This document shows, in pieces, positions 36,399 through 56,990 of a stretch of DNA of 64,000 bases (its first letter is position 1; each line of letters begins with the position of its first letter). The notes beneath the pieces were generated by a model that was not told the DNA's origin, searched no databases, and saw only the letters and a program-made list of their open reading frames with translations. Source of the stretch: Synergistaceae bacterium (GTDB lineage Bacteria > Synergistota > Synergistia > Synergistales > Aminithiophilaceae); contig JAESII010000004.1 in NCBI GenBank assembly GCA_016756725.1, forward strand, positions 597,472 to 661,471, in the 5' to 3' direction. Both the position numbers and the translations under genes were made by a program.

Positions 36399-36420
36399 GG
36401 TTTACCTCCTTGATCTCGTC

Positions 36421-39668: not shown

Positions 39669-39675
39669 GATTTAC

Positions 39676-39722: not shown

Positions 39723-39753
39723 GCTCTTGTCCGTTTTCGATAGTCGGATTCTT

Positions 39754-40815
39754 TTACTCGACTTCGGCTTCGAGGTAGGGGTTCTGTTCGTTGAGTCTAT
39801 TCTGGGTGATACGGAGCGTGGCTTTTTCACCGATGGCGATGTCTTTGACGGAATCGAGGTCTCGGACGATGATGAGGTACTTTTCCTCACTTAGAGAGAG
39901 AAATTCGGCCCGCTCTTTTGCCTTTTTGTTCTTTTTGCCCCCTCGCGCCGTTCCCTGTCTGATCCGCTCGGCGACGATGACGTTGCCATCCGCGTAGAGA
40001 TCGGGCTTGGGCGGTTTGGGGAGCTTGACGACATCCTTGGCGATCATTCGGCCGTAGCCGCTGCGGGTCTTGCCGCCGATGCCGGTTGTGGCCAGGCTCT
40101 CCCCGACGAGCTCCATGGCCAGGTCGAGCCACCGGCGACCTTCGTCGGAGGGGTCGTCGCAGGTCAGGACGACGACGAAGGTCCCCGTCACGGAAAGGAA
40201 ACTCACCGGAACGGGCGAATCGAAGTCGGTCGGTGCTTTCGTCCCCTTCTCGCCATAATAGTCGCCGTGGTGAGGTGTCATGATGTCGCGATGGAGTTGG
40301 ACGGTTTTTCCTTTCGGCAGGGCGTCGTGGAAACGGATGTGGCCCTGGTCGTCGGTGGTTCCGAAGAGTGTTTCGTAGGCGGTTCCGCCTTCAAGAAAGT
40401 CGGGGTTTTCCTTGCCCCAGCGGCTGTGGCAGTAGTGGGCCGCCACGCCTTTGAGGGTGCTTCCGGGAATGAAGGGGACGCCGTAGGTATGGTGAAGGGC
40501 CAGGCCTGTCTCGACGGGGCTGGCGATGCCCAGCCCGCAGATGAGGCGGCCTTGGGTTTCAAAGCCTTTGATGGAGATGGGGGCTCGCTCTTCTTCCGTT
40601 CCGAAGGCCTTGAGCCAGCGCCGGAAGAGGGCGTCATAAAGGGTTTTCGCGCCGTTACAGCTGGCGATGACGGCTTCGAAGTGACAATCCCAGTCGGCGC
40701 TGGCTCCACCGGCCTCTTTCTGGGTCTTCAGGTAGCGCTGGAGAATGAGACCGGGGTGACTGGCGTCGGCTGGAGACTGGTTTTTCAGGCTTTCACGAAT
40801 GGCCATGATCGTCAC
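39754..40815 (-). CDS. cmr6: Cmr6 type III-B subunit with C-terminal extension
   Basis: 353 aa. Cas7-like end subunit of the Cmr backbone. Motifs: GLGIASPVETGLALHHTYG, PFIPGSTLKGVAAHYC and the glycine-rich ATTGIGGKTRSGYGRM. About 90 residues follow this loop, including a lysine-rich stretch (GGKKNKKAKERAE), making it longer than usual; the tail resembles a small beta-barrel. The ATG at 40815 overlaps the cmr5 stop as ATGA. Last gene of the Cmr operon. Confidence 0.93.
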   Translation of the reverse strand: MTIMAIRESLKNQSPADASHPGLILQRYLKTQKEAGGASADWDCHFEAVIASCNGAKTLYDALFRRWLKAFGTEEERAPISIKGFETQGRLICGLGIASPVETGLALHHTYGVPFIPGSTLKGVAAHYCHSRWGKENPDFLEGGTAYETLFGTTDDQGHIRFHDALPKGKTVQLHRDIMTPHHGDYYGEKGTKAPTDFDSPVPVSFLSVTGTFVVVLTCDDPSDEGRRWLDLAMELVGESLATTGIGGKTRSGYGRMIAKDVVKLPKPPKPDLYADGNVIVAERIRQGTARGGKKNKKAKERAEFLSLSEEKYLIIVRDLDSVKDIAIGEKATLRITQNRLNEQNPYLEAEVE

Positions 40816-41192
40816 GGCTCGTCACTTCCTTCGGGGTCTTTAAGCAGTGTCGCCGCGTAGCGCTTGATCCACCCTGCTCCTTCCAGGGCCTCCCGGGAAA
40901 GAAGCAGATAGTCTTTCAGCGGGGCCTTTCGGCTTTCTTCTGCTAAGGCTTCGCCTGAAGACTTGCCCAGGGTTGCGGCCAGGTCGTCGGCCAGGTCTCC
41001 CCTTTTCTTCGCGATGGCGAAGCTCAGCGCCTGAGTTAGCCCGCAGCTGTGGATAAGGGCGGGGAAGGAGAGGGCGAGGCTGTGGTATTTTTCCTGATCT
41101 TTTGCGTTTTCCGTCTCCTTTCGTTTCTTGACGGCGGCGAAGGCTCTCTGGGCGAAGCGCTGTTCCCGGGTTTTGATCGTTGTCTCCGTCAT
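40812..41192 (-). CDS. cmr5: Cmr5 small subunit
   Basis: 126 aa helical subunit. Starts MTETTIKTREQRFAQRAFAAV, then PALIHSCGLTQALSFAIAK, both characteristic of Cmr5. The ATG at 41192 lies 5 bp after the cmr4 stop. The open frame upstream is cmr4 in another frame. Confidence 0.92.
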   Translation of the reverse strand: MTETTIKTREQRFAQRAFAAVKKRKETENAKDQEKYHSLALSFPALIHSCGLTQALSFAIAKKRGDLADDLAATLGKSSGEALAEESRKAPLKDYLLLSREALEGAGWIKRYAATLLKDPEGSDEP

Positions 41193-41197
41193 CAGAG

Positions 41198-42094
41198 TCA
41201 CCTCGTTTCGTCGGCGAAGGAGAGGCGCACCCGTCCCCGGCCGACAGTGGCCTTGCCTCCGACCTGGATCAGGGCCTGATCGGTGGCGAAGCGCTGCAGC
41301 AGTTCCTCGGCCTTCTGCCGCCCGATACGGTTGCCGTCGCACCAGACGAGGCCGGCCAGAATCGTTTCGGCCGGCAGGGATTCCTCATACCAGAGGCCTC
41401 CCGTGGCGACGGTTCCCTTTTCGCCGTCGATGCGGATTCGGGCATCGACCTGGGTGCCGAGGACGCAGAGATAGTCGAAGAGGTCGTTGGAGATGATGGC
41501 AAAACGCTCGGCGAAGATTTTCTTCCATTCCTCGTCGTCGGCGAAGAGCTTTTTGCCCAGGAACTGGGCCCATTCTGTCGCCGCTGCGTCGGCGGAAGCG
41601 TCGCAATCGAGATCCTGCAGGTAGATCTTTTTCTTCGGCGCAAGCAGGCTCGTTTCGGGAAGGGCGGCCCAGGGGGAATCCGATCCCCTATCGACCGGCA
41701 GGGCCGGTGTTTGTGTCCCTGCCGCTTCGAGGTCCCGTTTGAGGTTTTGAAGAACCAGTGGTGAGGCGCACCAGGCGAAGGTCCCGTAGAAACTCTGGAC
41801 GGGGAGGCAGACGAGTCGGGCGTCGGTGAAGACGAGGGCTCCCGCGGCGGCCTCGTCGTCGCCTCCGAGGCCGAAGGCCAGTTTTTTCAGGGTCTCCCCT
41901 TTTCTCGAGGCTTCGTCGGAGGCGCCATGGTGATCGGCGAGGACTCCTTTGACGGCGCTTCCGGGGACATAGGGCCAATGGGTCGTCTTTTCCCGGGCAA
42001 TGGGCAGGTCGATGTGTCCCAGGCCACGCCCTGCTCCGACGTGGAGGGGCGAAAGGGCATGAAGCCAATAGTTTTTGGTCATGGTGGCGCTCAT
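41198..42094 (-). CDS. cmr4: Cmr4 backbone subunit
   Basis: 298 aa Cas7-like backbone that cleaves target RNA. Motifs: YWLHALSPLHVGAGRGLGHIDLPI (including the catalytic Asp in HIDLPI), WPYVPGSAVKGVLADH and GGKATVGRGRVRL. The ATG at 42094 follows AAGGAGG. The upstream in-frame codons are cmr3 sequence. Confidence 0.95.
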   Translation of the reverse strand: MSATMTKNYWLHALSPLHVGAGRGLGHIDLPIAREKTTHWPYVPGSAVKGVLADHHGASDEASRKGETLKKLAFGLGGDDEAAAGALVFTDARLVCLPVQSFYGTFAWCASPLVLQNLKRDLEAAGTQTPALPVDRGSDSPWAALPETSLLAPKKKIYLQDLDCDASADAAATEWAQFLGKKLFADDEEWKKIFAERFAIISNDLFDYLCVLGTQVDARIRIDGEKGTVATGGLWYEESLPAETILAGLVWCDGNRIGRQKAEELLQRFATDQALIQVGGKATVGRGRVRLSFADETR

Positions 42095-42116
42095 CGTTCC
42101 ATCCTCCTTGATGTGG

Positions 42117-43259
42117 TCAGCACAAGCCCCAGAGGGCCAGTCCGTAGCCGTCGTTTCGGGCTTCCTCGTCGTCGCTGATCGGCTCAAGCCAGAGCGGGAC
42201 GAGTGTCTTCCCGTCGCCTTTCAGGATTTCGAAGAAGTAGACGCTGCCCGCCGGGACGAGGCGGGAGAGTGGTTTGGGACCGCCTGTCTCGTAAGACCAT
42301 CCCGAAAGGGGCTCCCACCGTCCGGTGACGGCCGAGACGAGGCGTACCTTGACGGTTGTCCCGGGAATGGTTCCTGTCCCTTTCGCATCAAGCCACTTCG
42401 GTTTCCAGCCCGATTCGAAGCGGGCCGGGGTGGCAAGGATCAGCCGCAACCCCTCTCCCGGCTCGAGGCGGGAGAGTCTTTCGGCGACCCCTTCGGGGCA
42501 GCTCCAGAGGCCGTCGAGGTCCTGTTCTCTTTTCCAGCGCAGGAGCCTCCTCTCTCCTCCGCAGGGGTGAAGGGCGTCGAGCCTTTCGAGGAGGATGTCG
42601 AAATGTCCCTGTCTGTCCTCAAGGCGCAGAGCCAGATCGACGCCCCGAAGGTCGAGGCCCGTCGACGAGAAGAGCATGCCTTCCTCGGCGGCGCCGCTGG
42701 CGCTGTCGATCCTGACGTGGATGCGGTCCTCTTTGTGAGGGTAGGCCAGGTAGGGCATTCCCTCGTCCAGTTCCTTCGGGTCCGGCGGAATCGGAGCAGG
42801 TTCTTCGCCACAGAGCCAGCGGGTCATGACGTCGATGGACCAGAAGGCGGGTGTCCCTGCCGGTTTGAAGTTGGCCTCCTCTTTCATGAAAGGCAGCTCG
42901 TCGGCGCCGAAGTCGGTCCCCTCGCCGTCTTGCAGCTTTTGGGGGAGCAGGCGATGGACGAAGCGCTCTGTTTTTCCGCCGTCCTTATCTTCACGGATGA
43001 GGATGTCCTTCGGGGCGGGAACGAAGAGCGTTCTCTCCCGAAGCGGCAGGGGGCCGGCCAGGGCCAGGCCTTTGAGCCGGGCGATGAGGTCGGCGTCGAA
43101 GACGCCGCCGGCGGCCTTGCCCAGCAGGGTCCGCAGCGATCCGGCCACTGTCGAGGGCCTAGGCCAGTCGAGAGAGTGCATCCGCTGCCCGAAGCCGAAG
43201 GGGCGGCTGTCACGGGCGATGAGGGGGTCTCGGGCGATGGCCCTGAGGGTGCTTTTCAT
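42117..43259 (-). CDS. cmr3: Cmr3 subunit
   Basis: 380 aa Cas5-like subunit that holds the crRNA 5' tag beside Cmr2. It begins with the family pattern ARDPLIARDSRPFGFGQRMHSLDWPRPSTVAGSL (positions 9-42) and ends with EEARNDGYGLALWG. The ATG overlaps the cmr2 stop as ATGA. Confidence 0.92.
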   Translation of the reverse strand: MKSTLRAIARDPLIARDSRPFGFGQRMHSLDWPRPSTVAGSLRTLLGKAAGGVFDADLIARLKGLALAGPLPLRERTLFVPAPKDILIREDKDGGKTERFVHRLLPQKLQDGEGTDFGADELPFMKEEANFKPAGTPAFWSIDVMTRWLCGEEPAPIPPDPKELDEGMPYLAYPHKEDRIHVRIDSASGAAEEGMLFSSTGLDLRGVDLALRLEDRQGHFDILLERLDALHPCGGERRLLRWKREQDLDGLWSCPEGVAERLSRLEPGEGLRLILATPARFESGWKPKWLDAKGTGTIPGTTVKVRLVSAVTGRWEPLSGWSYETGGPKPLSRLVPAGSVYFFEILKGDGKTLVPLWLEPISDDEEARNDGYGLALWGLC

Positions 43260-45010
43260 GAGCGCACCTCCTTCGGCGGCTCGCCGTCAGCCAGATGGCG
43301 GGCGACGAGCAGTTCAAGGACAAGGTCTTCCAGATGGCGGGCGGAGGCCAGTTTTTTGATATGCTTGGCCATTTCGCTTTTCAGGGTCTCCCTTTTCGGC
43401 TCGCAAAGGCGAAGCTCCTTGCGGCCGAAGACCCGGGAGATGTCCCCCATGAGGGCTTCGGCCACGTCGTCGCCACTGTCCCAGTTTTCGTAGGTGCCGA
43501 CGAGACGGCGCAGTTCGTAGGGGTAGCGGGAGGGCAGTCCGCCGGTGGCGAAGAGTTCTTTCCAGTACCGAAGACGCTCGTCGAGTTTCGAGCTCCACCG
43601 GCCCCGGACGGCGATGGGGGCGTTGCCCCGGGACCGGACGACGACGGCCAGGCCGTCTCGGTCGGGCTCTTTGGCCATCCGCTCCGCTTCGTCGGCGAAG
43701 CGGAGCAGGTCTTCGAGGGGCTCCAGAAAATGGCCGACGGCGATGCCCACAGAAAGAGTGGGATGGTCCTCTTCTTTCAGGGCTTCCTTGGTTTTGACGA
43801 AGCTTTTGGTAAAGCTTTCGGCCAGCTCGTGGGCACAGGGAAGACAGGTCTCCAGGGGCAGCAGGGCCAGAACGTCGTCGCCGCCGGCGTAGATGCAGGC
43901 GCCGTCGTGGGCTTCGACGATCTCGCGGGCCTTGTGGGCAAAGCGGGCCAGATCGGCCGAGAATTTCTGGTGTCCCTCAATGGTGGTGAGGGTGGAGATG
44001 GCCCTGCCCATCTTGTCGCCGTCGGCTTTGACAATGGCCAGATAGGGAAAGGGCTCGCCGAGCTTTTTCGTGAGGGCTGTAAGAGCCGACCGGAGTTTCG
44101 AGGCGTCCAACCCCGTCTCCTTCTCGAAGTCGGTCAGTCGCCCCGGGAAAAGGTCGCCGTCGTAGGTCTTCCAGCCCGTTTTACTTTCCGAGGCGCCGAT
44201 GGTTGCGGCCCAGGCGTCATGGAGATTCTGCATCAGGTCGGGACAGAGGGAATCGGCGGCCTTGAGCCAGGGGGTGGCGGCGATGCGGTCTACGGGAGGG
44301 AAGGCCCCTTTCTGGGCGCTTTCGGGCTGGGCGGCACGCTTGATGAGGCCCATGGCATCGAGGGCCTCTCCCTGCTTGAGACGGAGGCGGTAGCGTTCCG
44401 CCTTCCCGATTTTGCCGTCTCGAAGAAAGGCTTCCATGTCTTTGCCGACGAGCAGGGCCTCGTTGCGGCCGTCGAGAGAGGATTTTTCCCTCGGCCTCTC
44501 AGGCTGTGCCGAAGGAGGGGCGAAGTCCCGCACGTTCTTTCTGGCTGCCATGAGGGAGGCCAGGCGTTTTCGGGCGTCGTCATAGTCGGCGTCGCCCTTG
44601 CAGGGCACCCAGGCGGCGAAGAATTCCAGGGCGTCGGCGAGCTGGGCACGCCAGAGATTCTCATCGATGACGTTGGAAAAGCGGGACAGGACCTGGTCGC
44701 CGTAGCGTTCCAGGCACGCCTGGGCGGCCTCCCTTGCCTTGCGGGCCGTTTCTTGAGGGTCATCTACGAGGGCGATGATGACGTTGGCGACGTTCGGCTC
44801 GTCTTTGCCGTTCAGGGCGGACTTATCAGGAAAGATGAGCGGACTGTCGCCGTTACGGACGGGGCGGGACGTCTCGTGGACGGATCGGGCCGCTTCGAGG
44901 CAGATTTCAGAAAGCAGGCGGGAGCCGAACCAGAGATCGCGCGTCCGCCTGGCGGCGGCGATGAAGGGCTGAACGGGTCCGATGGAGAGGTTGAGGAGAT
45001 AGGAGGTCAT
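43256..45010 (-). CDS. cmr2: Cmr2 (Cas10) without HD domain
   Basis: 584 aa. It starts directly with LLNLSIGPVQPFIAAARRTRDLW, the D1 palm of Cmr2, and lacks an N-terminal HD nuclease domain, so DNA cleavage is not expected from this complex. The cyclase motif ACIYAGGDDVLALLPLE (GGDD, residues 376-379) and IVKADGDKMGRAIS are intact, so cyclic oligoadenylate synthesis is possible. It overlaps cmr1 and cmr3 by 4 bp each. Confidence 0.95.
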   Translation of the reverse strand: MTSYLLNLSIGPVQPFIAAARRTRDLWFGSRLLSEICLEAARSVHETSRPVRNGDSPLIFPDKSALNGKDEPNVANVIIALVDDPQETARKAREAAQACLERYGDQVLSRFSNVIDENLWRAQLADALEFFAAWVPCKGDADYDDARKRLASLMAARKNVRDFAPPSAQPERPREKSSLDGRNEALLVGKDMEAFLRDGKIGKAERYRLRLKQGEALDAMGLIKRAAQPESAQKGAFPPVDRIAATPWLKAADSLCPDLMQNLHDAWAATIGASESKTGWKTYDGDLFPGRLTDFEKETGLDASKLRSALTALTKKLGEPFPYLAIVKADGDKMGRAISTLTTIEGHQKFSADLARFAHKAREIVEAHDGACIYAGGDDVLALLPLETCLPCAHELAESFTKSFVKTKEALKEEDHPTLSVGIAVGHFLEPLEDLLRFADEAERMAKEPDRDGLAVVVRSRGNAPIAVRGRWSSKLDERLRYWKELFATGGLPSRYPYELRRLVGTYENWDSGDDVAEALMGDISRVFGRKELRLCEPKRETLKSEMAKHIKKLASARHLEDLVLELLVARHLADGEPPKEVRS

Positions 45011-46311
45011 GATGTCACCTCCCGGAAGCCCTGTTCTTTCGCGAAGGCGATCAAGGCTTCGATCGCGTCGCCGCGAGGGGAGCGGTTTTTCAGCGGCGAC
45101 TTGCCGTAGGTGGCCGAAGCGGAGGTGATGATCTCGGCTTGCTGACCTTTCAAAAGATTTTCCCCCTTCAGGTGCAATTCGAGGTTGTCGGGAAGAGGGG
45201 CGTTGAGAACGGCGATGAGGGCAACGGCTTTCGTTTTATCTGTTGCCAGGGGTTTGACGATCACCGGGCTTGCCATGCGGTCTTTCTTCTCTTTGTCTTT
45301 CACGGGGTAGAGCTCCGTGTCTTCCGGGTCAAGACCGTTTCTCCCGCTGTCTTTGAAGTGGGTGATGATGGGCAGGCCGAAGGAGGCCCGTGGGAAGGCG
45401 CAGGGCTTGTGGGGGTCCGGCTCGTGCTGAAGGTCATGCGTTCCGGCCAGGTTGCGGATGGCGTCGGCCTCGGGCCAGCGGGAACGGCCGGGCCTGTTAT
45501 GCTCTCTGCCGGGGTTACGGCCAACCTCTTTGCCTTGGCGAAAGTCTTTGTAGAGATTGATGGCCTGATTCCAGACCCGGATGGGGTCGCCGGATTTCTT
45601 CTCGATGAGAACGGCTCTTCCCAACGTCGGCCAGGGAAGCGGCCCAGTCTTGTCGCCGCTGAGGTTGCCGAAGTGCTCCTGAAGCCAGAGGGCCAGATTG
45701 TCCTGGACATCGGGAGAAAGAGTGGGGCAGTAAAGAGAGCCCGCTCCCTTTCGGGTTCGGGCACCCAGTCCGCCGAAACAGACCCAGGCACGGAGAGCCT
45801 GGAAAAGTTCGGATCGCGCTGATTGAGGCCCGCGAACCAGAAGCGTGAAGGCGCTCCCTTTCAGGGCCTCTCCCGGTTCTTGCGTCACTCTTCCGTTTGC
45901 TTTTTTCCCCTGAAAGGGAAAGAGGGCGTAAGGGGGGAATCCGTCGTTGAAGCGTGGGAAGTTCTTGTCCGGAGGGAAAGAGGCACAGGGGAAGAGAGAT
46001 CCCTTCTGACAATTCGCAACAGAGAGGGAGACTCTGCTTGCCCTTCCCGTGTTTCCCCACAGCGCCGATTCCCGCTCGTAAAGCTCTTTGGATGACGTGC
46101 AGCTCCGCCCGACCGTGGCGCGCCACCAGAAGCGCAATTGGCCCCTGATGGACGTTCCCCGGATAGGGTTTGTCGCGTCAACGACTCCGGCAGTGACGCC
46201 CCCTCCGAAAAGGGGCGTGACGACGTGAATCTCGAAAGATTCCTCGAAAAACTCCTCCTGTCTGCCGGGAGACGGTTTTTCAGGAGGAGGGCCGCCGATG
46301 GTGCGTGCCAT
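45007..46311 (-). CDS. cmr1: Cmr1 subunit
   Basis: 434 aa. FEIHVVTPLFGGGVTAGVVD followed by IRGTSIRGQLRFWWRATVGR is the Cmr1 signature. Cmr1 sits at the 3' end of crRNA and gates target binding. The ATG at 46311 follows GGAGAG. It is preceded by the CARF gene, 71 bp away. Confidence 0.94.
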   Translation of the reverse strand: MARTIGGPPPEKPSPGRQEEFFEESFEIHVVTPLFGGGVTAGVVDATNPIRGTSIRGQLRFWWRATVGRSCTSSKELYERESALWGNTGRASRVSLSVANCQKGSLFPCASFPPDKNFPRFNDGFPPYALFPFQGKKANGRVTQEPGEALKGSAFTLLVRGPQSARSELFQALRAWVCFGGLGARTRKGAGSLYCPTLSPDVQDNLALWLQEHFGNLSGDKTGPLPWPTLGRAVLIEKKSGDPIRVWNQAINLYKDFRQGKEVGRNPGREHNRPGRSRWPEADAIRNLAGTHDLQHEPDPHKPCAFPRASFGLPIITHFKDSGRNGLDPEDTELYPVKDKEKKDRMASPVIVKPLATDKTKAVALIAVLNAPLPDNLELHLKGENLLKGQQAEIITSASATYGKSPLKNRSPRGDAIEALIAFAKEQGFREVTS

Positions 46312-47524: not shown

Positions 47525-47695
47525 TCAGTCTCCTTTCCGGTCGGCTTCGCCTCTCGGGTGGAGGCGGAGCTCTTCTCGCGTCTCCAGCTGGCCGGCGCTG
47601 CGTTCCGCCTTGGAGCGGAAGCGGTGTATCCGGCGCCGGCTGCGGCTGTTGGAGGTCCCATAGGTCCAGGAGAAGATCTTTCGTCTGGCCTTCAT
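47525..47695 (-). CDS. Small basic protein opening the Cmr operon
   Basis: 56 aa, strongly basic in its first half (MKARRKIFSW, NSRSRRRIHRFRSK), followed by a charged helix. The ATG at 47695 has a GAGGTG site. It is the first ORF after element copy E and ends 2 bp before the CARF start. It could be a leader peptide, RNA-binding factor or small regulator. No family recognised. Confidence 0.6.
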   Translation of the reverse strand: MKARRKIFSWTYGTSNSRSRRRIHRFRSKAERSAGQLETREELRLHPRGEADRKGD

Positions 47696-47757: not shown

Positions 47758-47782
47758 GCTATATATGGATTCTTTGAGTGAA
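47758..47782 (-). promoter_or_regulatory. Shared 25-bp element, copy E (Cmr operon)
   Basis: Minus-strand TTCACTCAAAGA, ATCC, then ATATATAGC. It is the most divergent copy but keeps all invariant columns. It lies 62 bp before the small basic gene and 24 bp after the AAA+ gene stop. Confidence 0.8.
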
Positions 47783-47805: not shown

Positions 47806-49206
47806 TCATCTCAGATGGCGCAGACAGAGAATCCGGCTTTCCTCGGCCTCGGCTCTTTCGACGGCTCTGGCGAGAACAGTCCGCAGGTCGCGGAAGTTGC
47901 CGGGATAGGGTCGGCTTTCCAGTTCGCTGACGGCGTCGAGGGAGATGCGCTCGACGGTCCGTTCCCTTCTTTTCGGGGGGTTCACGTCGTCGGCCTGGAG
48001 GGTGAGGCTGATGAGCAGGCGCAGGTCCTGGCGGCGCTCCCTCAGGGGCGGGATTTCGACGATCCGGTCGAAGCGGTGGAGCAGGTCGGCCCGGAATCGC
48101 TCGTCGTGGCCCTGGGCCCAGTCGCGGACGGGGCGGTTCGTGGCGGCGACGACGACGGAGGGGGCCTGGAAGGGTTTCCCGTTCCAGCCCGTGGGGCGGA
48201 CCTGTCCGCTGTCGAGGTAGAGGAGAAGGCGGGTCTGGTGTTCGGGGAGCATGTCGCCGATTTCATCGAGGAAGATGACCTTCCCCCTGTTGGCCAGAAA
48301 GGCGCCGGGGTTGTCTGGGGCGTCGGTGTAGCTTCCTCTGACGGAGCCGAAGAGCTCTCCGTCGATCAGTTCGCGCCCGACGGCGGAGATGTTGACCTGG
48401 TAGAGGCAGTCGTTTTTGCCGAGGAGGCTTTCGGCGATCCAACGGGCCAGGAGGGTCTTGCCCGTTCCCGTTTCGCCCAGAAGCAGAACGGAGGGGATGC
48501 GGCCCGTCCGGACGCGCCGATCCTCTTCGGATCGGGCAAGTGCCTCCCAGTCGATGCCTCCTTCTCCCTCCTTCAGAGGCAGAGGGCTGTCGCGGAGTTC
48601 GTCGAAAATGGACCGCTCGGAGGCCAGGTGTCTTTGCACCCAGAGGATGGCCCTCTTGAGGTCCGATGCCATCTGTTTTGTGGCCGGGTCGGCGAAGAGG
48701 CTGACAAAGCCGGGGTCGATTGTTTCCTCCAGAAGGGCCTTCCATCCGATGGGCTTGGAGATCCTCTCCTCCTGGAGCTTTTTCCGCAGGAGCTTTCTGG
48801 CGGCTTCCTTGAGGACTCTCTCCAGGAGGGCCGATTCATCAGGGTCGGGAAGCTGCTCTCCGAAGAGGCGGGAACCCCTGACGATGCCGACGATATCGTA
48901 GTCGAGGGAGCGGAAGGCGCTGACGACGTCGTTGTTCCATTGACCGCGGGGGTCGTCCTTGTCGAGGACGATGAGCGTCGGCAGAGGAGGCTCCCAGTTC
49001 CGCTTGTGGCTCAGGAAGTCCGGCGCGGCGACGAGGAGGTGGGGCCTGGCCTCGCTTTCGCCGGTGACGACGGTAAGTTCGGTTGCGGCCATTTCAGGGC
49101 GTTGCTCCGTCGCTGAGAGGGCTTCAAAGTGCTTTCCGAGAAGTTGTCGGGCCGTCTCGAAGTCGTTCCATTCGATCTGGACGACAAGGGGCGTCTTGTC
49201 GGTCAT
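47806..49206 (-). CDS. AAA+ ATPase resembling sigma54 activators, altered GAFTGA loop, no HTH
   Basis: 466 aa. Walker A GETGTGKT (244-251), ELFGSVRGSYTDA (285-296), Walker B VIFLDEIGD (310-318) and FRADLLHRF with PPLRERRQDL match the central domain of bacterial enhancer-binding proteins. The sigma54-contacting loop GAFTGA reads GSYTDA. The protein ends straight after the AAA+ lid, without the usual DNA-binding helix-turn-helix. The first 165 residues form a Rossmann-like domain of unknown ligand, perhaps receiver-like. It overlaps the preceding gene as ATGA and closes the polymerase operon. Confidence 0.85.
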   Translation of the reverse strand: MTDKTPLVVQIEWNDFETARQLLGKHFEALSATEQRPEMAATELTVVTGESEARPHLLVAAPDFLSHKRNWEPPLPTLIVLDKDDPRGQWNNDVVSAFRSLDYDIVGIVRGSRLFGEQLPDPDESALLERVLKEAARKLLRKKLQEERISKPIGWKALLEETIDPGFVSLFADPATKQMASDLKRAILWVQRHLASERSIFDELRDSPLPLKEGEGGIDWEALARSEEDRRVRTGRIPSVLLLGETGTGKTLLARWIAESLLGKNDCLYQVNISAVGRELIDGELFGSVRGSYTDAPDNPGAFLANRGKVIFLDEIGDMLPEHQTRLLLYLDSGQVRPTGWNGKPFQAPSVVVAATNRPVRDWAQGHDERFRADLLHRFDRIVEIPPLRERRQDLRLLISLTLQADDVNPPKRRERTVERISLDAVSELESRPYPGNFRDLRTVLARAVERAEAEESRILCLRHLR

Positions 49207-50075
49207 TGCAGGGGCTCCTTCCGTTTCGTGGGACGATTGTCCGCTCTCAGTTCGGCAAGCCATTTGCGCTGCAGCGTCGACTCTTGCGGCTGCTGGAAGG
49301 GGATGACGGTTTCCTTGAGGGGGAAGGCTTCGGCGGTGATGCGGCCCAGGTCGCGGCAGAAGTTTTCGACGGCCTCCGGCAGCCAGGTTTTGACCTGGCG
49401 CCATGAGACGGAAGCGAGTGCGTCGAGGCCGAGTTTTTTACGGATCGTCTCCTCCAGCCAGGCCGCCTTCAGATATTTCGGGAGCTCGCCTTCGGCGTTT
49501 CCCTGGTCGGCGAGGAGCCGGGCCAGGGGAAAGAGATGTCCGTCCAGGTCCGTCATGGCCTGCCCTTCGAGGTTGGCCGAACCGGATCTGTTATCCGTGA
49601 GGCCGTCGATCCAGGTCGACTGGGCCAGTCCCTGAAGGGCCTGAAAGTCGCAAAAGATCGGGTCGACCTCGGGCAGTCGCTTCAGGAGCGTCTCCACGGC
49701 CAGGCGAAGCTTTTCCCAAAAGAGCGGTTTTTTCCGGGGAAGGCGGCGCCCGCACCAGAGCAGGCATTCGCCGTCCCAGAGCCAGATGAGGTTCAGCCGG
49801 AGTCCCTGATGAAGCTCTTCAAAGGGATCGGGCTCTTCGTCGGTCGGCTCGTCGTATTCGTCCTCTTCCGTCTCGATGTCCTCGCAGTCGGGCTCCTCCT
49901 CGATGATTTCCGGGAGCGGGTCGTCGAAAGGGGCGATTTCGTTGAAGCCCATCAGCCCCGGTCCTCTCTGGTGCCGGGAGGCGGATGTCCTGGCCTGGGG
50001 CGATGGCTCCGGAATTTGAGCAGGGGCGGGTTTTTGCCTGGTGCTTCGGCCAGGGCGCATCCGTTGAGCGGTCAT
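49203..50075 (-). CDS. Unknown protein coupled to the CRISPR-linked RNA polymerase
   Basis: 290 aa. A basic, proline-rich N-terminus (to about residue 45) is followed by a very acidic segment (residues 55-80), then a helical, Trp/Leu-rich body (GLRLNLIWLWDGECLLWCG, LFWEKLRLAVETLLKRL) and a basic tail. It overlaps the RNA polymerase stop and the AAA+ start as ATGA on both sides, which argues for a stoichiometric partner. It could be a promoter-specificity or bridging factor between polymerase and ATPase. No sigma-factor motif is recognisable. Confidence 0.8.
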   Translation of the reverse strand: MTAQRMRPGRSTRQKPAPAQIPEPSPQARTSASRHQRGPGLMGFNEIAPFDDPLPEIIEEEPDCEDIETEEDEYDEPTDEEPDPFEELHQGLRLNLIWLWDGECLLWCGRRLPRKKPLFWEKLRLAVETLLKRLPEVDPIFCDFQALQGLAQSTWIDGLTDNRSGSANLEGQAMTDLDGHLFPLARLLADQGNAEGELPKYLKAAWLEETIRKKLGLDALASVSWRQVKTWLPEAVENFCRDLGRITAEAFPLKETVIPFQQPQESTLQRKWLAELRADNRPTKRKEPLQ

Positions 50076-53000
50076 GGCTGTTCCCCCCTTGTTTTCAGGC
50101 TGACCGGCCGGAGCAGGACGGAGCTTTTCAGGCCCAAGAGATCGTCCCGCCTGCCGGGCTGGAGCTTCTCGTCGAGCCGCTCGTAGGCCAGGGCGGCCAG
50201 CCAGCGTTTCTCGTCGTCGTCGGCCCATGCCTCGAGCCCTTCCGGGGCTCTCAGGGCGATTTCGTAGTGGATCAGGGCCTGGGGCAGGTTGTTCCCTTCG
50301 TCCGCCAGAAGGCTCAGAAGGTCGGCGATTTCCTCAGGCAGGCTTCCTTTTTTTCTCCGGTTCAGAAGGAGCTCCTTCAGCCGGACGGCGCTGCTGACCT
50401 TGGAGCCGACGTCGTGGAAAGCCTTCATGGAAAGCTGCGTTCCCCGCTCGCCGATGGCCATGGCGGCGTCGAGTCCGACGGGGCGGCCGATTTTCTGAAA
50501 AGCAGGCCTGTCGAAGGGCATGAGAGCCCGGTCGGCGCCGGCACAGCAGGCGCAGAGGCCTCTGCCGGAGGTCCTGCAGGTCAGAGGGCTTCGCAGGACC
50601 AGGGAGCCGCCGTTTCGGGCCATGTGGTCGGCGAGGTCTTTCTTCTTCAACAGCCTGCCCTCTTTCCAGTAACCGAGGATCGCCGAAAGGTCGTCACTGT
50701 CGAGGAGGCGCTTCATGCCGACGGGACAGCGTCCCCAGGCGATTCGCGAAAGGGCTCGGCCTGGGTCGGCCTCGAAAAAGTCGAGAGGATCACCGCCTGT
50801 GGCGAGACGGATCCTCTCTTGCCCCTCAGGTCCGTTCCGGAAGGAGAGGCTCAAACCCTTTTCGGAGAGACAGTCGTCTTCGGTGATGCGGCTGTCGTAA
50901 AGCCCTTCGGCGAGACGCCGGGCCAGGTAGCCGCCCTGAGCGACGAGGAGTTTTTTGGAGGCCATGGCACGGCGGGATTCGTAGCTGTAAAGGAAGAGGT
51001 TCTTTTCACTGAGCCCCTCCCAGAGGCAGGCTGTGATCCATGCGCGGGCGAGGTCGGGGCCCCCAAAGTTCTCGATGACGGCGGCCTCCTCCTGAAAACC
51101 CAGGCAGCCCATGGCCTGGACGAGATCCGAAGGTTTTCCCTTGGCCTTGCCGGAGATGAGGCGGACGAGGTCCCCGTCCTCCTGCCTTTTCAGGAAGGTC
51201 TTGACGGCCTCTTCCATTTTTCGCCGCAGATCCTCCCAGCTCCGCCGATGATGAGAGATGCCGTCGCCGGAGAGGTCGCCAGCGGCTCTGTCGCGGCATC
51301 GGGGGGCCTCCTCCCGAAGTTTGGCGAGGTTTCCGTCGTTCCAGAGGGCTTCCAGTTCGAGGGGGCCCAGGGAACAGGAGGCCGTCGAGGCTTTTGCCAG
51401 CTCGGCCTGAAGAGCCCCCAGGGTTTCGGCGAGGTCCCGGGCGCTCTGACCGCGGCAGAGGCCCAGGAGAAGGTCGCTCAGAGAGGTCTTTTGCTTCTCC
51501 TGTTCCTTGAGGCCGGCCTGAGTGAGCCAAAAGAGTCGTCTTTGTCCGCTCAGGGCGAGCCAGCCCAGGGCGAGGTCGTTTTCTGCCGAGAGGGCCGGCG
51601 CCCCCGTGCCGAGAAGGCCCGGGTGAAAGACGAGGCTCCAGGAGGAGAGATCCTCGAATCCCTCTGGGGGGACGACGACGGCCATGGTGTCGCCGTCGAA
51701 GTCGGCGTTGTAGCCCGGAGTGGCCAGGGGGGGGAGGCCGATGACATTCTCGCCGTGACAGCGGACGCGGAAGGCCTGGGCGTTGTGGCGATGAAGGCTG
51801 GGTTGACGGATCAGGAGGACCCAGAAGGGATGTCCGTTCAGGGCCTCGTTGAGCCTTCGGAAAAGATCGGCCGTGCCGTCGCCGCGGCGGAGAGATTGCC
51901 AGTCGCTCTCGTCAAGGCCGGCGGCGTCGATGAGTTGCCGGGCCGACCCGTGGCCGTCGAGCATGCGGGCGATCATGGAAGCGGGGAGAAGGGTTTCGTC
52001 GGGGCGGAGTCCGGGTCGGGGAACGATGACGGCTCTTCCCGTGCGGTTGTAGCGTCGCCCCAGGAGGTGTCCTCTCAGAAGGCCTTTCTTCCCCTTGAGG
52101 AGGCCGACGAGCTTTTTGCGGTAGTTTGAGAGGGCGTCGAGGAGGTCTTCCAGATTCTCTCCCTTTCCGTAGGCGAGGGACAGCAGAGCCGTCAGGACCC
52201 GTCGGAGGGAGGCGGTGTCGTCGAGAACCTCCACGATGGCCGGGTCGAAGGGGAAGCCGTAGCGGGGTCCGGTGGAGGCGTCGGTCCAGGCGAGGAAGAA
52301 GAGGAGCCCTTCGAGGGGGATGGTGTCTTTCTTCTTGCCGTCCTGGGGCTTCCGGGGGAGACGGGCCAGCTCGCGCAGCGGTTCTGCCATGGGGTGCTCG
52401 GCGCCGTCGACCTGGGATCTTTCAAAGAGGGAGAGAAGCCGGAGGATCTTTTCACGAGACGGCAGTTTCTTCGGCTTGTCGGCAAGCCGAAGAAGGGATG
52501 CGGCGAGGGCCGAAGGCAGTGAAGGGACCGCTTCGGAAGGGGTTTCGTCTTCTCCGGCCGAAGCATCCGATGGCGTCGTTTCTGGGAAAGCGGCGAAGTC
52601 GAGCAGGTAGAGAGGTTCCTCTGCGGAAGGTTTGGCCGGACCTTCCCGGCGGGCCTCTGCCTGAGGGAGCTTCTGCATGATCCCTTCCTGCAGGGAGAGA
52701 GGCTCCCCCCTGGCGGCAGTCGTGATGATGCCGATGTCGTCGGAGATGACATCAAGCCCGAGGGAGCGCAGGATGGTGCGAAAAACCCGCCATGTCCGGT
52801 CGGGAGGGCTGTTCTGTTTCCGGAGGGCCGTCAGGAAATCCTCGGCGTCGACGGCGCCGTCGTGGCTGAGGATGGCCCAGTTTTCCATCTCTCCCAGCCT
52901 CTGCCCCGAGAGCGTCCCCGCCTTGATCGGCTCGGAGAGGAGGGTGCTCCTGGGGCCGCCGTCTCCTCGGGCCTGAAGCTTTTTAGCGCTGTGGTGATGG

Positions 53001-54685
53001 AGGCGGCAGATGTACTGGTAGCCGCAGAAGGCCCGGCCCTTTCTGCCGTCGCCGCAGTCGATCTCAAAGCGCCCTCCGTCATCGGCTCCCTGTCCTTTGA
53101 GATCGGGGAGCCGTTGACGCCAGTTTCTGTCTGTCTCCGACGCGATATCCTCCGTAAAGAGCGACTGGACCATTTCGGCGATCTGGCCGAAGTTCTTGCG
53201 GCCGATGATCGAACAGGGGGAGATGATGAGGTCGATGTCGCGGCGTTTGCCGTCGATGAGAGCTTGAGGCGGTCGGTCGAGAATGGCGGTGACGACTCCC
53301 TTGTTGCCGTGACGCCCCGTGATCTTGTCGCCGATGGCGAGGGGACGGTTCAGACTGAAGCGGTAAAGAAGGCGAACCTCCAGCGGTTGGCGGCGGGTCC
53401 GCCCCTTTCCCCGGGGTCGTCCCTGGAGGAGGCGGACCGTGACCGAATCGAGCCGTGCCCTGTCGTTCCAGTGATAGCGCCTCGGCCGGAATCCCAGAAG
53501 GCGGAGGGTCGGCGGCAGGGGGAGTGGGTCGTCGAAGCGGCAGTAGCACCCGACAAGGGCCTCGACTTCCCGCTGGAGCTCTTTTTGCGTGAGGGTGGCC
53601 GGAGAGCTCTCTTCGAGGAGGAGCGTTTCCCGCTGTTCCAGCGTTGCCTCGGGGAGGGCCAGCCTCTCGGCGAAAGAGCGGGAGACGACAAGGCCGTCTT
53701 CGTAGGTGAGCCCTTCCCAGGGCATGACGGCGACAAGGGCGTTGACGCCGAGATAGGGGAATAGGCGGCCCTTCTCGGTCGCCTCGCCGCCGAGATCCAG
53801 TCGCCGGAGACGGTGCCCCTCGCAGTCTCCGGGAATGCGGGAGGGTTCGCCCCGGATTCCCGCCTCGGCCTGCTTGAGGTTTTTGCCTCCCATGAGGAGA
53901 CGGGGGCCGTCGTTGTGGCGGCCGTGGGGGACGAGGCCTACGGCCAGGGATAGGCGGGAGCGGCCGGATCGGATAGCCTTGTCCTTGATCACGGCGTCGG
54001 CGGTCAGGTGGAGCTGGAGGCCGATGCGTTCCGATTCGGGAGTGTGATAAGGGCAGAGGCGCCCTTCGTGGCTGTGGTGGGGCCGTCGCAGCGGGCCGTC
54101 GCCCCGGGGATTGAGGGCGATTTCGACCTTGCGGCGCTCCTCCAGGCGCCGCAGGGGATTGCCCGTCAAGGGGCTCATCAAGGCCAGGCTGCGGCTTTTG
54201 CCGGAAACCCAGAGGGAATTGATCACGGCTTCGAGCCCCAGAAACCATTCGATGCGGGCCTCTCCCTCCCGGTTGAGATTCCGGGCGAAGCGGCCCCAGG
54301 CGTTTTCGACGAAGTCGGACCAGGTCGAAACGATCTCCATCTGATCCAGGTCAGCGACCCCCTTGAGCTTGATCGATTCGCTGTCGTTGCTTCCCGACGG
54401 TTTGTGACGGGCCCTGTAGCTGAAAATCCGAAGTTCTCCCTCGGGCAGGCAGAGGACGTCTGTCGCCGGAATCAGCCAGCGGAGCCTCCATTCATCCAAG
54501 CCGAAGGTGTGCTTGACGGCAGATCCCGACAGGAGGATCTCCTGACGCAGCAGGTCCGGTCTGTCGGGAACGGGATTTCTCAGTCCCCTTTTCGCCGAAA
54601 GCCGACGCTGGCCCCGGAGGCCGGCCAGGCAGCGGTCGATGACCTGATCGACTTCGTCGAGCCAGGCCCTTGAGTCACCGGCCAT
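50072..54685 (-). CDS. Single-chain DNA-dependent RNA polymerase (beta-like and beta'-like halves)
   Basis: 1537 aa. Residues 1-650 follow RpoB: RRPHHSHEGRLCPYHTPE (200-217), VNALVAVMPWEGLTYEDGL (314-332), IGDKITGRHGNKG (451-463), IISPCSIIGRKNFGQI and SGQRLGEMENWAI (593-605). After an acidic linker (about 680-725), residues 730-1537 follow RpoC: LLGRRYNRTGRAVIVPR, PSLHRHNAQAF, the catalytic NADFDGD (993-999), a bridge-helix-like LVAQGGYLARRLAEGL, a CRTSGRGLCACC zinc site and the trigger-loop GERGTQLSMKAFH. All catalytic signatures are intact. It is little over half the summed size of housekeeping beta plus beta'. No alpha or sigma gene is nearby. The ATG at 54685 overlaps the CARF-HD gene by 11 bp. 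Confidence 0.93.
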   Translation of the reverse strand: MAGDSRAWLDEVDQVIDRCLAGLRGQRRLSAKRGLRNPVPDRPDLLRQEILLSGSAVKHTFGLDEWRLRWLIPATDVLCLPEGELRIFSYRARHKPSGSNDSESIKLKGVADLDQMEIVSTWSDFVENAWGRFARNLNREGEARIEWFLGLEAVINSLWVSGKSRSLALMSPLTGNPLRRLEERRKVEIALNPRGDGPLRRPHHSHEGRLCPYHTPESERIGLQLHLTADAVIKDKAIRSGRSRLSLAVGLVPHGRHNDGPRLLMGGKNLKQAEAGIRGEPSRIPGDCEGHRLRRLDLGGEATEKGRLFPYLGVNALVAVMPWEGLTYEDGLVVSRSFAERLALPEATLEQRETLLLEESSPATLTQKELQREVEALVGCYCRFDDPLPLPPTLRLLGFRPRRYHWNDRARLDSVTVRLLQGRPRGKGRTRRQPLEVRLLYRFSLNRPLAIGDKITGRHGNKGVVTAILDRPPQALIDGKRRDIDLIISPCSIIGRKNFGQIAEMVQSLFTEDIASETDRNWRQRLPDLKGQGADDGGRFEIDCGDGRKGRAFCGYQYICRLHHHSAKKLQARGDGGPRSTLLSEPIKAGTLSGQRLGEMENWAILSHDGAVDAEDFLTALRKQNSPPDRTWRVFRTILRSLGLDVISDDIGIITTAARGEPLSLQEGIMQKLPQAEARREGPAKPSAEEPLYLLDFAAFPETTPSDASAGEDETPSEAVPSLPSALAASLLRLADKPKKLPSREKILRLLSLFERSQVDGAEHPMAEPLRELARLPRKPQDGKKKDTIPLEGLLFFLAWTDASTGPRYGFPFDPAIVEVLDDTASLRRVLTALLSLAYGKGENLEDLLDALSNYRKKLVGLLKGKKGLLRGHLLGRRYNRTGRAVIVPRPGLRPDETLLPASMIARMLDGHGSARQLIDAAGLDESDWQSLRRGDGTADLFRRLNEALNGHPFWVLLIRQPSLHRHNAQAFRVRCHGENVIGLPPLATPGYNADFDGDTMAVVVPPEGFEDLSSWSLVFHPGLLGTGAPALSAENDLALGWLALSGQRRLFWLTQAGLKEQEKQKTSLSDLLLGLCRGQSARDLAETLGALQAELAKASTASCSLGPLELEALWNDGNLAKLREEAPRCRDRAAGDLSGDGISHHRRSWEDLRRKMEEAVKTFLKRQEDGDLVRLISGKAKGKPSDLVQAMGCLGFQEEAAVIENFGGPDLARAWITACLWEGLSEKNLFLYSYESRRAMASKKLLVAQGGYLARRLAEGLYDSRITEDDCLSEKGLSLSFRNGPEGQERIRLATGGDPLDFFEADPGRALSRIAWGRCPVGMKRLLDSDDLSAILGYWKEGRLLKKKDLADHMARNGGSLVLRSPLTCRTSGRGLCACCAGADRALMPFDRPAFQKIGRPVGLDAAMAIGERGTQLSMKAFHDVGSKVSSAVRLKELLLNRRKKGSLPEEIADLLSLLADEGNNLPQALIHYEIALRAPEGLEAWADDDEKRWLAALAYERLDEKLQPGRRDDLLGLKSSVLLRPVSLKTRGEQP

Positions 54686-56990
54686 CGCGTCTTCCTCCCA
54701 TGACTTCGGGCTTCAGGCCAAGGGATTCCAGGATGTCTCCGATGCCTCCCAGCCGTTGCTTGCCTCGGGCCTGGTCATCCGCTTTCCCCGAAAGCTCCTC
54801 TTGGATGCTCTCGCGGACTTTTTCCAAAGCTGCATTGTCCGGACGGAGTTCATTGTTGGGCCAGATGCCGATGGTGACGCCTTTGCCGTCGGCGGAGGGC
54901 ATGGGAAGAACAAAGCCGACGGCCTGGTGCTTGCCGAAGTGAAGGAACTGCTCCCACTTGAAGGCAACCCGGTTGGCCAGCGAAAGGGCCTGGATTTTCT
55001 CGAAGTCTTTGTTGATGAAGGCCCAGTCTCCAGAGCCTTTGAGAGCGTTGAGCTTGTCGAAGACGGCGGTGTAGATGTCTCCGGTCAGCGTTTTTATGGC
55101 TTCCACCTGATCGTTATCGCGAAGAAGATCGTCGATGCGCTCGGGATTGATAAGGTCACTGAGTGTGTCCAGTTTGCAGCGAAGGTCGGCGGGGAGTTTC
55201 GAGTTAAAGAACGACAGCTGCTGCCAGAGGGCCTGGGCTTCCTTTTCCGTCCGTTTCTGGCGGGCCTTCAGGTAGACGTCGTCGACGGTTCTGTCAGCCT
55301 GGACGTCGCAGCCGTCGACGACGCGAAGCAGGGCGGCGCAGGCCAGCACCTTGGGGATCGAGAGGCCCCAGGCAGCGATTTTCCCCTTTTTGGCCTCAAG
55401 TACCTCTTCCAGAGGGCGCAGCGTCTCGTTGAAGTGCTCGTCGCCGAAGAGGAGCTTCCCCACCTGAGAGACGGCGCCCTTGGGCTGTGCCGTCTTCTGC
55501 TCTTTAAGCAGATGGGTGTAGCCCCGATGGTAGGCGCAGACGAGGGGTACCAGTTCCCGAAGCATGGGGGCCAGATCGCTGCCGTCGTCAGGGAGGAGGT
55601 CTTCTCCCTCGGCCAGGATCAGGTCTCTTGAGAGGAGATGGTGGACCTCGCGCACCGACGAGGGGAAAAGGCCTAGAGGGAAGGCGCCGCCTCCGCTGGG
55701 CGTGACGGGAAAGGCCAGAGCCGTGTGGCCGATGTCGTGGAGGTAGATGGCGGTGACGAAGAGGGCCAAAGCCTTGGCGTCATTCAGGCCCACGGCCTCG
55801 ACGTCTTCCGGGCGTGCCGACCGGAAGACGTTGGCGGCGATTTCCATGAGCCGTTTCGAGTGGCGGCGGCTGTGCTCGACCGTCTCGGGGATCTGGTCGC
55901 CCAGCCAGAGCTCGGCCCACTCCTTCTGGATCCGTTCTTCAATGTAATCGGCGATGGGTCCGCCGCCCTTTTGCTGCCTGATCCTTTCGATCATGCCCTG
56001 GCCGACACCGGAAGTCTTGCGCCTGTTGGTCCTGTAGTGATCGACGAGGACCCCGGCAAGGCCGAGTGTCTTCCTGTTGCCCTCTTCGTCTTGGGTCATC
56101 AGGCCCTTTAGCCAGTCAGGCAGGGCCTCGGCCTGTTTGTCGTTCAGAAGTCCCCCCGCTCCTTCCTTGACGCCCTGGAGGAGGGCCATTTCGTCATCGA
56201 GCTCTGCCAGGGCGAAGGAAAGGGGAAGGGGGGTGAGGTGGAGATAGTCTTTAGTGTTGTTCTCGAAAGAATAGATGCAAGGTAGCTGGTTGATCTGGCC
56301 GTAGAGCGTGGCGTAAGTGACGACGGCCTTATAGCTGCCGGTGCTGTTGATGAGGAACGAAGTGTCCTTTTCTTTTTCGTCCATGCGTTTCCTGTCGAAG
56401 GTTTCGAAAAGGCTATCGATGCTTCGGGCAAATTTCTCACTGCTTTCAACGGAAATGTCGATGGGCTCGATGGTGACTTCGATGGAAGAAAGTCCCCATC
56501 GGTCGAGAAAAGGAAGATCGTCTTGGGCTAGGCGCCTCAGATAATTCTGGATAACCAGCGCATTGCGCAGACATTTCTTGTTATTGTCCTTGTCCTTCTG
56601 CCCGTCTTCCTCCTTGTACTTCGAGGGGAAGAGGGCGATTTCCAGAGCCGGTTTGTCATCGCCTTCTTTGATCGGACGGTTTTCAAGCCAAAGACAAAGG
56701 CTCTGCAGCTCGGCGTTGGCCATTATAAATCCCTTGATTTTGACATTATCTTGTTTTGGATCGGGCAGATGGCCCGCTGCGATAATCGCATCGACAAGGT
56801 TGTCAAGGGCACCCACATGCTTGTCCTGCAAGGGTACGGCGATATTGTCGAGAGGCAGTTCCTTGAATCGCTCGAGCATAGCCTCATGGAGTCTCCGATT
56901 ATTTCCAGTCAACTTGTCGTTTTCTTTGTTTTTTCCTTCCAGTGAAGTTCCCACAGTGGTCAGGACGCAGATTTTTTTACAACTGGCCAT
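54675..56990 (-). CDS. CARF-HD protein
   Basis: 771 aa. The N-terminal CARF domain (KKICVLTTVGTSLEG; SFLINSTGSYKAVVTYATLYG near 211-231) should bind cyclic oligoadenylate. A central HD phosphohydrolase domain shows HSRRHSKRLM (373-382), AIYLHDIGHT (414-423), VHHLLSRDL, YHRGYTHLL and LLRVVDGCD, a complete metal-binding set. The C-terminal 170 residues are unassigned. It could be a cyclic-oligoadenylate-activated nuclease or a ring phosphodiesterase that switches the signal off. It is the first gene of the operon with the RNA polymerase. Confidence 0.9.
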   Translation of the reverse strand: MASCKKICVLTTVGTSLEGKNKENDKLTGNNRRLHEAMLERFKELPLDNIAVPLQDKHVGALDNLVDAIIAAGHLPDPKQDNVKIKGFIMANAELQSLCLWLENRPIKEGDDKPALEIALFPSKYKEEDGQKDKDNNKKCLRNALVIQNYLRRLAQDDLPFLDRWGLSSIEVTIEPIDISVESSEKFARSIDSLFETFDRKRMDEKEKDTSFLINSTGSYKAVVTYATLYGQINQLPCIYSFENNTKDYLHLTPLPLSFALAELDDEMALLQGVKEGAGGLLNDKQAEALPDWLKGLMTQDEEGNRKTLGLAGVLVDHYRTNRRKTSGVGQGMIERIRQQKGGGPIADYIEERIQKEWAELWLGDQIPETVEHSRRHSKRLMEIAANVFRSARPEDVEAVGLNDAKALALFVTAIYLHDIGHTALAFPVTPSGGGAFPLGLFPSSVREVHHLLSRDLILAEGEDLLPDDGSDLAPMLRELVPLVCAYHRGYTHLLKEQKTAQPKGAVSQVGKLLFGDEHFNETLRPLEEVLEAKKGKIAAWGLSIPKVLACAALLRVVDGCDVQADRTVDDVYLKARQKRTEKEAQALWQQLSFFNSKLPADLRCKLDTLSDLINPERIDDLLRDNDQVEAIKTLTGDIYTAVFDKLNALKGSGDWAFINKDFEKIQALSLANRVAFKWEQFLHFGKHQAVGFVLPMPSADGKGVTIGIWPNNELRPDNAALEKVRESIQEELSGKADDQARGKQRLGGIGDILESLGLKPEVMGGRRDGR

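Follow-up and report, generated by a model that had tools for sequence, protein, structure and literature searches.

The 64,000-nt stretch of DNA analysed here (the window) originates from a Synergistaceae bacterium (GCA_016756725.1, contig JAESII010000004.1, positions 597,472–661,471 of the forward strand; assembly completeness 82.9 %) and carries a type III CRISPR island in which the features listed in Table 1 all lie on the minus strand. Coordinates are given as window positions, and 185 Synergistota genomes served as the comparison set. Upstream of the cmr genes, the island contains a block of four genes encoding, in this order, a CARF-HD protein, a 1537-aa single-chain RNA polymerase, a 290-aa protein denoted U290 and an AAA+ ATPase of the sigma54-activator type. 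The original prediction placed the polymerase in a type III CRISPR locus and coupled it to both a CARF-HD and an AAA+ gene. The setting is borne out by cmr and csm gene sets with Cas10 (Pfam, NCBIfam), which represent types III-B and III-A, respectively. The coupling held on one side: the end of the CARF-HD gene (54675) and the start of the polymerase gene (54685) overlap by 11 nt, but the AAA+ gene is not next, as the U290 gene (49203–50075) intervenes and is joined to the polymerase and AAA+ genes by 4-nt overlaps on both sides. The four-gene block in the CRISPR island is thus confirmed as real, and it is bigger than first noted.

The polymerase open reading frame (ORF) has exactly the predicted length. 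Its product exceeds the Pfam cut-offs for Rpb2_3, Rpb2_6, Rpb1_2 and Rpb1_5, while Rpb2_7 falls under its cut-off; Pfam gave no match to Rpb2 domain 1 or Rpb1 domain 1, and the protein therefore looks like a reduced core. The catalytic motifs named earlier (GDKITGRHGNKG, NADFDGD and GTQLSMKAFH) are all present, and their key residues are invariant in an alignment of 39 proteins (the window protein and P0001–P0038). These comprise D995, D997 and D999 of the beta' barrel metal motif NADFDGD (PF00623, 1.2e-14), the beta barrel lysines K454 and K462 of GDKxxGRxGNKG (PF00562, 1.2e-18), and G1415, T1416, Q1417, L1418, M1420, F1423 and H1424 of the trigger loop GTQLxMKxFH. Cysteines C1272, C1370, C1378 and C1381 are likewise invariant in all rows. 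The fork region, the two barrels, the trigger loop and the four cysteines are beta/beta' features of DNA-dependent enzymes, and their retention supports the assignment of the protein as a multisubunit-type (two-barrel), predicted DNA-dependent RNA polymerase. The view that it is not the housekeeping enzyme survived a check for separate genes, since ordinary rpoB and rpoC ORFs lie side by side on contig C10 of the same assembly.

The remaining proteins of the block point towards signalling and transcription activation. The PADLOC CARF7--CARF_HD profile covers residues 5–734 of the CARF-HD protein, in which H373, H377, H418, D419, H422, H488, D559 and D562 are invariant among 9 orthologues. The proposed resemblance of the AAA+ protein to activators of sigma54 polymerase (bacterial enhancer-binding proteins, bEBPs) is well founded, given its PF00158 match, its conserved Walker A and Walker B motifs and its NtrC1-like fold (best match 1ny5/1ny6). 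Its GSYTG-type loop is nearly conserved, the position of the bEBP GAFTGA motif being occupied by GSYTDA in the window protein and by G[SA][YF][TS] in relatives. The front domain can be matched to the NtrC1 receiver only if it is allowed to sit differently relative to the rest of the chain (whole-chain root-mean-square deviation 23.6 Å), and the C-terminal helix-turn-helix (HTH) DNA-binding domain that is usual, though not universal, in bEBPs is absent from the 10 aligned orthologues, whose chains stop soon after the AAA+ lid. For U290, the best structural matches of an AlphaFold2 model in a second look were six sigma54 chains, a weak resemblance without sequence support: no match to sigma54 was found in Pfam (PF04552/RpoN), among PDB sequences or by profile–profile comparison with decoys. 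Comparison with a viral fold library returned no significant match.

A 22-bp element with the pattern TTCACNNAAAGAANNCATATAT recurs in the island, and is very probably the 25-bp element of the original prediction. Five matches occur in the window at ≤3 mismatches, against 0.01 expected, and five occur genome-wide at ≤2 mismatches, all in this island and all on the operon strand, against 0 for the reversed pattern. The stretch after the AAA+ gene that holds the first copy (E1) is nearly identical in three species. A pattern scan of the window found no copy alongside the CRISPR array, its upstream side included. The TTCACY and TATAT boxes are separated by 11 nt, and the key bases C6 and T18 lie 12 bp apart, as do those of sigma54 -24/-12 promoters, whose boxes are GG and GC. 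A scan for the sigma70-type promoter consensus found none on the operon strand between 46000 and 57400, and comparison of the sequences upstream of CARF-HD in four genomes revealed similarity between pairs only. The block is likely to be a dedicated transcription machine that would turn on the surrounding defence genes from the 22-bp element. The machine is probably sigma54-like and alarm-gated, its activity, promoter use and gating all being predicted.

Table 1. Four-gene block, element copies (E1–E5) and neighbouring genes of the defence island, listed in the direction of transcription
Feature	Position	Strand	Basis
CARF7-HD protein, 771 aa; predicted sensor/gate of the block	54675..56990	-	PADLOC CARF7--CARF_HD 8.3e-180; Pfam HD-CE and Cas_APE2256
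Single-chain beta/beta'-type RNA polymerase, 1537 aa	50072..54685	-	Pfam, NCBIfam, homologues, invariant catalytic columns, tree
U290, 290 aa, fast-evolving, acidic N-terminus; candidate specificity factor, predicted sigma54-like	49203..50075	-	Family alignment, AlphaFold2 model
AAA+ ATPase, sigma54-activator (bEBP) type; Rossmann-like front domain, no C-terminal DNA-binding domain	47806..49206	-	Sigma54_activat PF00158 3.3e-30
E1, promoter-like, before small ORF, CARF-RelE and cmr1-6	47761..47782	-	Pattern match
Small basic ORF, 56 aa; first reading frame after E1	47525..47695	-	
CARF7-RelE protein, 379 aa	46383..47522	-	PADLOC 4.2e-116
cmr1-cmr6, type III-B effector genes	39754..46311	-	cmr2-6 over NCBIfam cut-offs; cmr1 by RAMP domain and position
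Probable terminator, formed by a 23-nt perfect inverted repeat between cmr6 and E2	39675..39723	-	
E2, promoter-like, before surface-protein gene and csm1-5, just after the inverted repeat	39647..39668	-	Pattern match
Surface-protein gene with Synerg-CTERM sorting domain	38968..39375	-	TIGR04564 over cut-off
csm1-csm5, type III-A effector genes	33100..38847	-	All five over NCBIfam cut-offs
cas6	31557..32381	-	TIGR01877 over cut-off; PADLOC Cas6b
CRISPR array, 93 copies listed; right end approximate	25602..31430	-	
E3, promoter-like, before a short stretch without operon-strand gene	23786..23807	-	Pattern match
Predicted small RNA, ~180 nt, ending in a strong GC stem and T run	23605..23785	-	Sequence and folding
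E4, promoter-like, before Zorya genes	23534..23555	-	Pattern match
Zorya II: zorA 22142-23530, zorB 21422-22135, zorE 20565-21425	20565..23530	-	PADLOC ZorA2 2.1e-79, ZorB2 2e-91, ZorE2 2.3e-62
E5, promoter-like, before adaptation genes; overlaps the last bases of zorE	20551..20572	-	Pattern match
Adaptation genes: Cas1-like N-part 19155-20048, Cas1 C-part 17859-19112, cas2 17596-18006	17596..20048	-	PADLOC

As read from the match list, the polymerase family occurs in 15 of the 185 genomes (E ≤ 2.4e-52; the matches ranked below, at 8e-22 and weaker, resemble RpoC), and at least 36 database proteins reach 668 bits or more among the 7992 best word-sharers scored. The order of the block is retained at ~36 % identity. 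CARF-HD lies upstream of the polymerase in 13 of 13 carriers whose contig extends that far (those of G020 and G054 start inside the polymerase), with a 152–165-aa ORF in between in G106 and G109. U290 follows the polymerase in all 15 carriers (recognized by BLAST, or by position and alignment in G035, G058, G064 and G109), and the AAA+ gene lies downstream in 14, being present in two frames in G079 and absent from G054. Homologues were also found beside CRISPR genes elsewhere, as type III effector genes are present within the fetched neighbourhood of 10 carriers, including cmr genes in nine (G000, G020, G021, G022, G023, G058, G061, G064 and G106). In G109, the type III genes adjoining the block are not cmr but those of a III-D-like Cas10 and Cas7 (L043:7432-9650), which suggests that the block may serve several type III subtypes. 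The Cas10 palm family exceeds its cut-off in 12 of the 15 carrier genomes, ~31 kb from the block in G036 and on another contig in G079; G035 has a sub-cut-off match only, and G044 and G054 have none.

Exact matches to the element were found in only four of the 185 genomes, all of the same genus and with two each. At ≤2 mismatches these four hold 14 copies, with 0 for the reversed pattern, while 28 of the other 181 genomes contain at least one copy (34 in total versus 22 reversed, by our own count). Two copies precede CARF-RelE/cmr and csm in G021, G022 and G023, as in the window; a third lies before cas2 and cas1-like genes in G021 and G022, and in G023 on a short contig, before ORFs that by eye resemble the first adaptation genes, including a truncated cas1-like ORF without a PADLOC match. 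A diverged form, [AT]TCAC[CT]NA[AT]A-N7-T[AT][AT], which was derived after the sites had been seen, occurs in the fetched regions of G036 (one site 75 nt before CARF-RelE), G044, G058, G061 (one copy before an E1-E2/JAB gene) and G064 (eight same-strand intergenic copies within 4.2 kb), and is absent from those of G020, G054, G079, G106 and G109. A third G058 copy stands at the start of a gene that we take to be tmRNA, and was left out of the count of defence promoters. None of 60 dinucleotide shuffles attained the count observed in G000, G035, G036, G058, G061 and G064, while that of G044 (one site) was attained 7 times. When G106, G109, G061 and G020 were searched for motifs that recur between genes, the matches listed consisted only of CRISPR repeats, overlaps of fetched pieces and weak pairs.

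Since the diverged form was fitted post hoc, the genome-wide placement of TTCACYNAWA-N7-TWWW offers a fairer test. All matches lie ≤40 kb from the block in G000 (5), G021 (3), G036 (2) and G061 (2), as do two of four in G058 and eight of 16 in G064. G044 has a single match, which lies on a contig other than that of the block and is followed by a small secreted-looking ORF and by genes for a reverse transcriptase, Cas1 and Cas2, and one of the two in G109 shares its contig with the stronger Cas10 match of that genome. Several results weigh against such a placement: no match lies near the block in G079 (0/4), G054 (0/6), G106 (0/1) or G109 (0/2), the only G035 match falls inside CARF-HD, and 12 non-carriers of one genus contain 58 matches versus 49 for the reversed control (our own sums). 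Diverged versions of the element thus precede defence genes in several distant carriers, though not in all.

Several copies in G064 (L048:2280-6406) precede genes without a PADLOC match, which are candidate new effectors. In G058 (L051:16097-17562) and G044 (L175:132-1643), two genes come after the element, the first for a small hydrophobic protein that looks secreted and the second for a reverse transcriptase; the pair may constitute a new effector unit.

A possible mode of action starts from the conserved genes and order of the block and from the presence of ordinary rpoB and rpoC in the same genome. Basal expression of the block would be provided by the host polymerase. On meeting phage RNA, the Cmr or Csm complex would produce cyclic oligoadenylate, and its binding by the CARF domain of CARF-HD would free the AAA+ ring to remodel a closed complex of polymerase, U290 and promoter, with U290 presumably recognizing the TTCACY and TATAT boxes as a specificity factor of a reduced, sigma54-like kind. 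By position, the element precedes CARF-RelE/cmr, csm, the predicted small RNA, Zorya II and cas1/cas2, so that interference, effector, innate defence and spacer acquisition would all be stepped up at once when it fires. It is common for phages to inactivate the host RNA polymerase or turn it to their own use; joint induction would presumably hold even then, because a separate polymerase and an element found nowhere else in the assembled genome would free defence from dependence on the normal enzyme. The fullest version of this reading is put forward tentatively, as quite possible but somewhat short of probable: that type III CRISPR has captured an entire orthogonal transcription system, made up of the single-chain polymerase, a pared-down factor resembling sigma54 and the AAA+ activator, which is gated by the nucleotide alarm and runs a promoter-defined immune regulon of interference, effector, Zorya, small RNA and spacer acquisition genes, whose immunity would be independent of the host polymerase that phages attack.

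The role of U290 within the dedicated machine is the point at which another explanation is most credible. Although unlikely, it is conceivable that U290 is a structural partner (a stand-in for alpha or omega, or an adaptor for CARF-HD) rather than sigma-like, and that the polymerase itself recognizes the promoter, as in some phage enzymes; the absence of a sequence link to sigma54, the fast evolution and the acidic N-terminus would all fit such a role. However, only sigma54 chains stand out in the second structural look, and the occurrence of a bEBP-type ATPase in genomes that have no sigma54 match suggests that a sigma54-like target is to be sought elsewhere. The sigma54 family (PF04552) was found in 42 of the 185 genomes but in only seven of the 15 carriers, the match in the window genome being weak; it was not found in G035, G036, G044, G054, G058, G061, G064 and G079, which are 89–99 % complete. 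In all seven carriers with sigma54, the block AAA+ is accompanied by a host activator that scores 204 bits or more, whereas in seven of the eight without it the block AAA+ (89–127 bits) is the sole PF00158 match above the threshold of 41 bits (G054 has none). The persistence of the block AAA+ where sigma54 was not found points to a partner within the block.

The same counts bear on the rather improbable explanation that the element is an operator or promoter for the host RNA polymerase and is recognized by a transcription factor, possibly the AAA+ or the CARF-HD protein. The single-chain polymerase would then have a different function, for instance the amplification of guide or alarm RNA from an RNA template. 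The AAA+ protein does belong to a family of transcription activators, host sigma54 is available in seven carriers, including the window genome with its weak match, and TATAT could act as a -10 box. Yet the 11-nt gap between TTCACY and TATAT differs from the 16–18 nt between -35 and -10 boxes, the AAA+ chain stops after the lid without a DNA-binding domain, eight carriers show no sigma54 match, and the polymerase retains the features of DNA-dependent enzymes listed above, C1272, C1370, C1378 and C1381 among them.

It is very unlikely that the polymerase is instead a toxic effector whose alarm-licensed, non-specific transcription burns nucleoside triphosphates or jams the phage genome, the element being unrelated. 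The polymerase gene directly follows a CARF gene, and type III ancillary proteins often cause broad damage or arrest according to an excerpt of PMC11229360, but specific initiation is favoured by the AAA+ activator and by an element that precedes defence operons with consistent strandedness and recurs in distant carriers.

The phylogeny of the polymerase was inferred by a quick method from 54 rows and 772 core columns, with support given by the Shimodaira–Hasegawa-like approximate likelihood ratio test (SH-aLRT) without bootstrap. The 18 sampled family members form one clade (SH-aLRT 100) on a long stem (1.18), apart from a clade of 23 viral single-chain polymerases (99) and one of host RpoB-RpoC (91); the nearest outsiders, P0037 and P0038, attach weakly (70) and look like outlying relatives. 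An origin as a duplicate of host rpoBC was rejected on the basis of this separate clade and long stem. Of the kinship with fused plasmid and phage polymerases suggested in the original prediction, the likeness in layout stands, but the tree places the family apart from both viral single-chain polymerases and host RpoB-RpoC. A search of viral_contigs with the window polymerase's own sequence yielded no close relative, which led to the rejection of phage cargo; weak matches only (<60 % identity, none with >80 % cover) occur in 22 phage and 62 plasmid records. That the polymerase is a phage or plasmid enzyme serving a mobile element from within the defence island is hardly credible, since, although 38 viral contigs (L055-L092) encode single-chain beta/beta' polymerases of ~1900–3400 aa (mostly ~2000 aa), the family lies outside the viral clade (SH-aLRT 100 and 99), showed no close relative in viral_contigs in the search with the window sequence, keeps its block order despite ~36 % identity and is accompanied by the element before cas and Zorya genes.

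The dedicated transcription machine proposed here shares individual traits with several known systems. Like sigma54-RNA polymerase with its bEBP, it combines an AAA+ activator fold with two boxes whose key bases are 12 bp apart, but the boxes differ from GG and GC, the polymerase is minimal and the sigma factor is unrecognizable. Single-chain two-barrel polymerases of phages and prophages, such as YonO and that of P23-45 (described in excerpts of PMC5467207 and PMC10770324), also carry the beta and beta' catalytic parts on one chain; in contrast, the block is cellular, set in a CRISPR island and accompanied by a bEBP-type AAA+ and a CARF-HD protein, and the 23 viral loci sampled (YonO and P23-45 not among them) form a separate clade. 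As far as the excerpted text of PMC11229360 goes, CalpL-CalpT-CalpS is a type III effector that frees a sigma factor upon sensing cyclic tetra-adenylate (cA4), and thus ties the alarm to transcription via a dedicated specificity factor; CalpS, however, would redirect the host RNA polymerase, whereas the block encodes a whole polymerase and an activator and is associated with a promoter-like element. RtcR and RtcR/PspF-like proteins, described in part of PMC4012209 and in PADLOC as CARF-AAA-HTH activators, similarly link a sigma54-activator AAA+ domain to CARF sensing in defence or repair, but the block AAA+ lacks an HTH, the recognized CARF is on a separate HD protein and eight of 15 carriers have no sigma54 match. 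Csa3, a CARF-HTH regulator in the excerpt of PMC9704534, provides alarm-responsive control of cas transcription, but as a DNA-binding factor that acts on host machinery, while the block has a polymerase.

The claim that no CRISPR locus with such an enzyme has been described fits the literature search: judged by titles and the starts of abstracts, none of the full-text matches listed reports a CRISPR-linked RNA polymerase, the main CARF census (gkaa635), where the neighbourhood may be noted, being left aside. None is mentioned in the excerpts of PMC4012209, PMC11229360 (in which the term 'RNA polymerase' occurs 0 times) and PMC9704534. If the proposal is correct, an island equipped with a polymerase and promoters of its own would be the cellular equivalent of T7-type expression and would explain a joint raising of defence genes after a hit. 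It would be a sigma54-type system that does not rely on host sigma54. It would also represent a new outlet for type III signalling, wiring CRISPR interference to Zorya and spacer acquisition, and may potentially provide an orthogonal expression tool.

Further observations concern other polymerase genes and the rest of the window. Besides its ordinary rpoC, G024 encodes a second RpoC-type protein of 1924 aa (L054:6009-11780), which was considered as a family member and rejected because it contains RpoC domains only; in an 898-kb Pontibacillus plasmid record (L101), rpoB, rpoC and rpoA are consecutive. The small RNA predicted after E3 matched no Rfam family at the gathering score, with chance-level matches only. 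In the Synerg-CTERM gene after E2 (39260–39560), the likely start lies upstream of the annotated ORF, and there ATAG replaces the ATG present in G021-G023, which suggests that the start has probably been lost or that the assembly contains a base error. Cas1 is seemingly split into two genes (17859–20048), with an N-terminal-only match and a C-terminal match, as also observed in G021 and G022 (L152, L153). A separate type I-E system without a copy of the element occupies ~2.4–12.2 kb of the window, with its Cas7e, Cas8e and Cas3e genes at 4.4–12.2 kb, and direct repeats of 90–164 nt lie near its right end (63360–64000).

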